28,356 nt of DNA from positions 1-28,356 of IMG/VR virus record IMGVR_UViG_3300038701_001201, one strand, 5' to 3'. The DNA is from a virus. Each line of letters starts with the position of its first letter. Within the stretch, counting starts at the first letter, position 1. The translations under genes and the position numbers were made by a program. The notes under the pieces are model-generated. The model ran no database searches, was not told the origin of the DNA, and saw only the letters and a list, made by a program, of their open reading frames with translations. Positions 9,585 to 10,037 of the stretch are shown here, piece after piece.

Positions 9585-9661
9585 TGGCTGGCCCGGTAGG
9601 ATTCGAACCTACAGCCTCCCGGTTCGTAGCCGGATGCTCTATCCAGTTGAGCTACGGGCCA
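9585..9661 (-). tRNA. tRNA-Arg(ACG)
   Basis: A full cloverleaf of 77 nt: acceptor TGGCCCG/CGGGCCA, D-arm with GCTC...GAGC, anticodon loop CTACGAA (anticodon ACG), T-arm GTAGG-TTCGAAT-CCTAC, discriminator G and an encoded CCA. It decodes CGU/CGC/CGA after A34 modification. It is the last RNA of the cluster and lies 7 bases after the tmRNA-like element. Confidence 0.93.
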
Positions 9662-9668
9662 GCATATT

Positions 9669-9752
9669 TGGTGGACCCGGCAGGAGTCGAACCTGCGTGC
9701 CGCACCTGCTCACTGGAAGCTCTACGGTGCGGTCGAAACCATTCACGGGCCC
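9669..9752 (-). ncRNA. Minimal tmRNA-like RNA (tRNA-like domain only)
   Basis: 84 nt. Acceptor GGGCCCG pairs with CGGGTCC and includes a G3-U70 pair, the alanine identity element; then comes A73 and an encoded CCA. There is no D-stem: the segment after the acceptor is TGAATGGTTTCGAC, the conserved 5' D-analogue of tmRNA. A perfect 7-bp helix (CCGCACC/GGTGCGG) corresponding to tmRNA helix 2 closes directly on a 19-base loop, so the tag frame and pseudoknots are missing. The T-arm is GCAGG-TTCGACT-CCTGC. A normal tRNA fold fails because there is no anticodon arm with a 7-base loop. Known parallels are the message-less tmRNAs of jakobid mitochondria. Charging by host alanyl-tRNA synthetase is expected but inferred. 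Confidence 0.75.
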
Positions 9753-9826: not shown

Positions 9827-9946
9827 CAGAGCGCATCAAGGGAATCGAACCCCTCTCCCTTCACACCAGTCCTCGGCTAACGAGTCGGAATCGAACCGAC
9901 ACTATCCTCCGCACAGTCTTTGACACCACCCCGTGCGATTCTTGCG
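9827..9946 (-). other. Structured RNA segment with two T-arm-like hairpins (tRNA-like remnant or unusual tRNA)
   Basis: Downstream of the promoter at 9953-9981. Two 5-bp hairpins with tRNA-type loops TTCGATT are seen: GTCGG...CCGAC (9900-9884) and AGGGG...CCCTT (9854-9838). Further stems are CGCAC/GTGCG (inside 9934-9907) and CTCG/CGAG (9883-9869 region). GAACGCA just after the promoter can pair with TGCGCTC at the end, with one mismatch. Read this way it is one long tRNA-Ser-like molecule with anticodon CGA, but U37 and two extra bases before the acceptor are abnormal. It may also be two degraded tRNA 3' ends. Confidence 0.3.
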
Positions 9947-9952
9947 TTCACC

Positions 9953-9981
9953 ACTATAACCCCCGTCGCAATCATTGTCAA
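9953..9981 (-). promoter_or_regulatory. Sigma-70-like promoter of the RNA cluster and replication operon
   Basis: Read on the minus strand: -35 TTGACA (9981-9976), a 17-base spacer, -10 TATAGT (9958-9953). This is nearly ideal. A start near 9946 leads into the RNA cluster, and no terminator is seen between the tRNA-Arg and the protein genes, so it probably drives both. Confidence 0.8.
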
Positions 9982-10003: not shown

Positions 10004-10037
10004 AAAAAAAAGCAAGCCCCTGGTTAGCAGGGGCTTG
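10004..10037 (-). terminator. Rho-independent terminator of the late operon
   Basis: On the minus strand a perfect 10-bp stem (CAAGCCCCTG / CAGGGGCTTG) with loop CTAAC is followed by GC and eight T. It separates the structural operon from the promoter at 9953-9981. Confidence 0.9.

Follow-up and report, generated by a model that had tools for sequence, protein, structure and literature searches.

A phage RNA reduced to the tRNA-like domain of tmRNA and its possible role as a decoy for host SmpB

What is the 84-nucleotide (nt) RNA encoded on the minus strand at 9669..9752 of a 28,356-base IMG/VR virus record, and how might it act in an infected cell? The whole record is called the window in the following; protein library scans detected genes for a DnaB helicase, Sak4, RusA, a MazG-like protein and a major head protein in it. 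An earlier note, made from the letters alone, had described the element as a transfer-messenger RNA (tmRNA) of which little more than the tRNA-like domain (TLD) is left. Concerning this identity alone, we are nearly certain that the window RNA is a phage tmRNA reduced to its TLD.

Read from its 5′ end at 9752 to 9669, the RNA has the order GGGCCCG-UGAAUGGU-UUCGA-CCGCACC-(19 nt)-GGUGCGG-CAC-GCAGG-UUCGACU-CCUGC-CGGGUCC-A-CCA. The 5′ strand of the acceptor stem, GGGCCCG (9746..9752), forms seven of seven pairs with 9673-9679 according to sequence, Rfam alignment and fold, and holds G3 of a G3-U70 pair; the 3′ strand CGGGUCC with U70 is followed by A73 and an encoded CCA (together 9669..9679; sequence, Rfam alignment). 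Next to the acceptor lies a D-loop-like region without a D-stem, UGAAUGGUUUCGAC (9732..9745), within which the equivalents of U17, C18 and G19 are found, the positions by which tmRNA contacts SmpB (PMC8363625). The two strands of helix 2, CCGCACC (9726..9732) and GGUGCGG (9700..9706), form seven perfect pairs in sequence and fold, the helix being supported by covariation across the family described below. It is closed by a 19-nt loop, GUAGAGCUUCCAGUGAGCA (9707..9725; sequence, fold), in which a 3-bp inner hairpin may form according to folding. A CAC linker (9697..9699), the A of which corresponds to A334 in the Trp122 pocket of SmpB (PMC8363625), and a T-arm GCAGG-UUCGACU-CCUGC (9680..9696; sequence, Rfam alignment) complete the domain. 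Thus, the features listed in the earlier note, namely the tmRNA 5′ signature of an acceptor followed by a D-region UGGUUUCGAC without D-stem, a perfect helix-2 equivalent on a 19-base loop, and a T-arm, G3-U70, A73 and encoded CCA, all in 84 nt, were recovered on the minus strand.

The covariance search proposed in that note gave an end-to-end match to the Rfam tmRNA model RF00023 (model positions 1-374; 50.6 bits at a gathering threshold of 47; E-value 2.4e-17), in which 17 nt take the place of 308 model positions. The parts of the TLD known from standard tmRNA (7-bp acceptor, stemless D-region, T-arm and helix 2) are present together with the alanine identity conferred by G3-U70 and A73. The tag reading frame with its resume and stop codons and the pseudoknots PK1-PK4 are absent, as the note had stated, and the helix-2 loop replaces them. 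Being phage-encoded and consisting of the TLD and little else, the element belongs with the TLD-only tmRNA of the type described for phage DS6A. Neither a cloverleaf D-stem nor an anticodon arm, as expected for a tRNA (RF00005), is found. A better score for a cloverleaf, which the earlier note had named as the outcome that would speak against it, was not obtained: competition within the tRNA/tmRNA clan retained the tmRNA match as best at 9669..9752, and ARAGORN called no tRNA there, its sole call being the adjoining tRNA-Arg. A permuted, two-piece tmRNA (RF04321) was rejected, as the 5′ part precedes the 3′ part within the 84 nt; the match to this model was weak and below cut-off (19.8 bits versus 47) and extended into the tRNA. 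A family model, R1, derived from 22 other phage sequences and not from the window copy, found the window RNA at 58.4 bits (E-value 1.3e-12, R1 E-values being rough); in the same search, ordinary tRNAs stayed below 25 bits and pieces of canonical tmRNA reached at most 33 bits. The folding energy of the window RNA is modestly unusual (z = −2.1), energy folding of single sequences being a poor guide here, with some relatives misfolding in silico. ARAGORN made no tmRNA call for the window copy either, and called a tmRNA at just 3 of the 171 family places; annotation pipelines will therefore usually miss such RNAs.

Pattern scans of the IMG/VR viral contigs followed by a structure filter detected TLD-only RNAs on at least 229 viral contigs. 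Because UUCGAC and a GGUUCR T-loop are required by the scans, variants escape them; the filter demands at least six of seven acceptor pairs, all five T-stem pairs, UUCGAC, at least three helix-2 pairs and also GGG at the 5′ end. Applied to 300 randomised windows and to 45.6 Mb of locus DNA after randomisation, this filter let no match through. When the window, genome and phage loci are added, the set comprises at least 238 places, at least 168 unique sequences and at least 121 clusters at 85% identity. Since only 21 of the 55 loci found in a later, complete scan had been seen before, we roughly guess that the family in the viral collection numbers 400 or more. Scanning approximately 85,000 bacterial and archaeal species yielded 35 raw matches, six of which pass the structure filter. 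Based on six passes there and at least 229 viral contigs, we conclude that the TLD-only type is strongly virus-associated; one of the six is a contig filed under Sinomicrobium with a terminase gene on the same 8-kb stretch.

Conservation was assessed with the selection imposed by the searches in mind, as the acceptor, T-stem and helix pairings and the short motifs were selected by scans and filter and these pairings are, therefore, not independent evidence. U70 and A73, neither of which was selected for, occur in all 238 places among the matches listed, and in scans that placed no demand on the equivalent of A334, this position is an A in 65 of 65 unique sequences. Of 98 clusters, 80-97% retain pairing at helix-2 positions 2-7, compared to 36-43% when the strands are slid, and each of these pairs shows 46-66 double changes. 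In a same-length alignment of 22 sequences (A3), covariation was 0.647 versus 0.155 after shuffling and at most 0.134 after sliding. The helix-2 evidence is somewhat inflated, as the filter demands a few consecutive helix-2 pairs. Covariation and model building relied on the same-length subset because MAFFT misplaces the acceptor or helix 2 when linker lengths are mixed. In 11 further sequences that failed at four contiguous pairs, a helix-2-like pairing with an interruption is still present. The earlier note had suggested looking for compensatory changes in related phages; this could be followed in part, as helix 2 covaries across unrelated phages, but no close relatives of the window phage were available. 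Searches of the viral contigs with the exonuclease or the major capsid protein gave no relatives, the Sak4 search gave distant ones, mostly 21-33% identical and without a TLD, and phage records yielded two distant matches to the capsid protein and two to the exonuclease.

Two layouts can be distinguished in the family. In the minimal layout of 60-67 nt, the loop directly closing helix 2 is small and in many cases a stable tetraloop (UUCG, CUCG, GCAA, GCGA or GAGA); UUCG caps occur at loci L223, L407 and L420, CUCG caps in the L394 group and L411, and GNRA caps in L222, L430, L315 and L428. The larger layout carries an apical element AARRCC-N4-GG-A over helix 2, with an asymmetric internal loop, which is conserved in many members. 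The window RNA falls into the larger layout by size, not by motif.

Unannotated TLD-only copies were also detected within tRNA clusters in the finished genomes of two cultured Streptomyces phages, LuckySocke (OR725497; 17977-18057, 57.1 bits) and pSt2308 (PV588686; 33356-33436, 61.0 bits). A third Streptomyces phage, Riptide (PV654398), has a degenerate copy scoring 53.6 bits with R1. A tRNA lies within 150 nt at 25 of the 171 family places, always on the same strand. A search for a conserved neighbour gene found none that was constant; the most frequent one occurs in 10 of 98 clusters. SmpB was absent from all 50 carrier records in a search that was positive in 10 of 10 bacterial controls; therefore, any SmpB has to be supplied by the host. 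Some individual carriers deserve mention. The 123.6-kb contig L023/G003 (IMGVR_UViG_3300025362_000004) contains a full tmRNA (77588-77979, 94.2 bits) and additionally a TLD-only RNA (46486-46567, 65.1 bits), a natural pair in which regulation of the long form by the short one could be examined. In L125 and relatives, the RNA is positioned between prohead protease-like and major capsid-like genes, 121 nt from the latter, in an apparent head-gene operon as judged from the sequence. In the bacterial isolate Cellulosimicrobium cellulans MP1 (L319; contig NZ_JAFGYF010000003.1), a TLD-only RNA is found close to glycosyltransferase genes of phage moron families, possibly in a prophage or island.

Several kinds of match were discarded. 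The broad first pattern also caught many ordinary tRNA neighbourhoods, which the structure filter removed, and BLAST of single TLDs against phages returned mostly tRNA T-arms and full or permuted tmRNAs. Candidates L326, L327, L328, L330, L332, L334 and L335 proved to be permuted or full tmRNAs. At L335 (Gordonia phage GMA2, KR063281), Rfam additionally matched a Pistol ribozyme between tRNA genes (1342-1398, 56.8 bits).

In the window, the TLD RNA is followed after 7 nt by a tRNA-Arg(acg) on the same strand (9585..9661; ARAGORN, Rfam tRNA 66.8 bits), with which it is probably cotranscribed; the note's observation of an adjoining true tRNA is thereby confirmed. A sigma-70-like promoter, TTGACA-17 nt-TATAGT, was identified on the minus strand at 9953..9981 by a consensus scan (11 of 12 matches; one found versus 0.2 expected). 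The earlier note had placed the RNA right after a strong promoter: the consensus match is real, but it is located approximately 200 nt upstream of the 5′ end and not directly before it. Further upstream, an intrinsic-terminator-like hairpin with a T run (10013..10037, minus strand; 0.9 expected by chance in the consensus scan) would part the transcript from the upstream exonuclease gene, which is weak evidence on its own. Between promoter and TLD RNA, two more T-arm-like sequences, GGTTCGATTCC in AGGGG/CCCTT and GTCGG/CCGAC stems, are present on the minus strand (9841-9851 and 9887-9897), with 0.02 expected by chance. Neither forms a tRNA recognised by ARAGORN or Rfam; they may belong to the same transcript, as tRNA-like RNAs that have decayed or are unusual.

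Trans-translation is a near-universal quality control of bacteria. With moderate confidence, and largely by analogy, we read the window RNA as a phage TLD-only RNA of the DS6A type that acts as a decoy for host SmpB and thereby blunts trans-translation. The RNA would be transcribed from the promoter at 9981-9953 together with tRNA-Arg and trimmed in the manner of a tRNA. Host alanyl-tRNA synthetase (AlaRS) would then charge it with alanine, and host SmpB and EF-Tu would bind the charged form. As a decoy, it would keep SmpB occupied; it may also go into stalled ribosomes, where no reading frame would be on offer. During infection, tagging and decay of nonstop products by the host would consequently be weakened. 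In standard tmRNA, the globular domain of SmpB stands in for the missing anticodon arm of the TLD (PMC3929946). U17, G19 and A334 of the TLD contact SmpB, G19C prevents binding, and AlaRS reads the G-U third pair (PMC8363625); the equivalents of U17, G19 and A334 as well as the G-U third pair are all kept in the window RNA. Further, PMC4131195 describes strong inhibition of tmRNA in Escherichia coli by a DS6A-like TLD-only RNA, chargeable or not, perhaps through titration of SmpB. The host-SmpB decoy is our best reading because the SmpB-contacting positions are kept and an RNA of the DS6A kind inhibits tmRNA. The alanine charging, the binding of SmpB or EF-Tu and the block of trans-translation suggested in the earlier note would agree with this precedent and with the conserved determinants.

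Several points weigh against a decoy. Expression, charging and binding of the window RNA are predicted from sequence, and the idea rests by analogy on one published example, DS6A, known via citing papers. With 66% identity to its best match among the 171 family loci, the window copy is an outlier; it has CAC before the T-arm where most members have GAC, and the AARRCC-N4-GG-A motif of the larger subgroup is absent from its loop. The window phage has no close sequenced relatives, and conservation is seen across distant phages. Finally, a pure SmpB sponge would not need the universal alanine identity. This last point leads to the main rival, a rescue without message, which we consider unlikely: the alanylated TLD and SmpB would enter stalled ribosomes and take over the nascent chain without a degradation tag, so that the ribosome is freed or untemplated alanines are added, the phage keeps its ribosome turnover and its own truncated proteins escape proteolysis. 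That alanine identity occurs in every filtered member listed suggests that charging matters, and no mRNA was needed in vitro for polyalanine to be made with SmpB and a TLD fragment (Shimizu and Ueda, 2006, as cited in PMC3929946). Mitochondrial tmRNAs without a tag frame still co-occur with SmpB (PMC11915505), and growth of lambda-immP22 requires ribosome rescue, not tagging (PMC2862035). However, such a rescue has no obvious release step without a stop codon, and the published TLD-only RNA inhibited tmRNA whether chargeable or not, as PMC4131195 describes it. A broader version, in which rescue is actively reprogrammed as a widespread phage strategy by an alanylated, message-less TLD joining host SmpB on stalled ribosomes (untemplated alanine or untagged release), with the conserved AARRCC-N4-GG-A of the larger layout as a second binding site, appears rather improbable to us.

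The universal G3-U70 and A73 in the filtered set listed, together with the binding of EF-Tu to acceptor and T-arm, would also suit an RNA whose main target is not SmpB and which acts either as a decoy for AlaRS or EF-Tu or as an alanine-specific tRNA-like regulator. A plain tRNA-Ala or a minihelix would do for this, however, and helix 2 would be superfluous; moreover, the SmpB-contacting D-region and the A334 equivalent are also conserved (contacts according to PMC8363625), and we give this explanation little chance. We think it very improbable that the RNA is a decaying remnant, be it a once full-length phage tmRNA with a deleted middle part, an attP-like leftover of integration or an assembly artefact. 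Fragments of ssrA are known in prophages (PMC9004378), interior deletions of tmRNA occur in some older metagenome assemblies (PMC11915505), and the Riptide copy appears degenerate. On the other hand, covariation, a common apical motif and stable tetraloop caps are found across unrelated phages, the copies of pSt2308 and LuckySocke are in finished genomes, and the 5′ and 3′ halves are both kept. A tyrosine integrase was detected in only 6 of 50 carrier records, in one of them approximately 1 kb from the RNA, and an origin as attachment site is therefore not general. For the window itself, a prophage attachment-site remnant of ssrA was rejected, as both gene ends are kept and no integrase match was obtained for the ten window proteins run against each library. 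For the family, the remnant explanation is largely refuted. Hardly credible, finally, is an aberrant tRNA-Ala that lost its D and anticodon arms and has no relation to tmRNA: a true tRNA adjoins and phages do have odd tRNAs, but UGGUUUCGAC followed by helix 2 is a tmRNA signature, and this reading is disfavoured by the clan competition and the ARAGORN result given above.

With at least 229 viral contigs, at least 121 clusters and covarying helices, a single curiosity becomes a recurrent phage gene type. Many phages may interfere with the way in which bacteria free stuck ribosomes, and the proposition that phages antagonise or reprogram ribosome rescue is now directly testable in the cultured phages LuckySocke and pSt2308.

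The earlier note had known of no described phage version reduced like this, which has to be corrected: a TLD-only tmRNA of mycobacteriophage DS6A is published, as reported in PMC11915505 and PMC4131195, both citing Mao et al. (2009). Both RNAs are phage-encoded TLD-only tmRNAs from different phages, likened here by the published description. The TLD-only phage tmRNA is thus already known, as a kind that was almost empty until now; DS6A is the single published case, whereas the window RNA belongs to a set that is large and diverse. What is new is the breadth of the family, its division into two layouts, the apical motif and the occurrence in cultured phages, on which no paper was found among open-licence full texts. 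In total, 79 bacteriophage sequences and nine “standard, no CDS” forms are recorded in a tmRNA database of 2025 (PMC11915505). With standard bacterial tmRNA (RF00023), the window RNA has in common the G3-U70 acceptor, A73, CCA, the stemless UGGUUUCGAC D-region, the base of helix 2 and the T-arm; it differs in having neither tag frame nor pseudoknots, in its length (approximately 84 versus 360 nt) and in the small loop on helix 2. Full-length phage tmRNAs, as in Melnitz, Streptomyces phage Daubenski and mycobacteriophage Tonenili, are likewise phage-encoded and tmRNA-derived and often sit amid tRNAs, but they carry the tag frame; they were reported for 402 phages among 18,146 (PMC9004378). The mRNA-like domain has also been lost from tmRNAs in mitochondria and in Mallomonadaceae plastids (approximately 65 bp), message-less forms which belong to a different lineage and are usually permuted in mitochondria (PMC11915505). 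The minimal layout resembles in form the TLD crystallised with SmpB (2CZJ; PMC3929946), a man-made construct in which helix 2 is shortened and capped by a UUCG tetraloop: L223, L407 and L420 have this cap naturally, whereas the window copy has its 19-nt loop instead.
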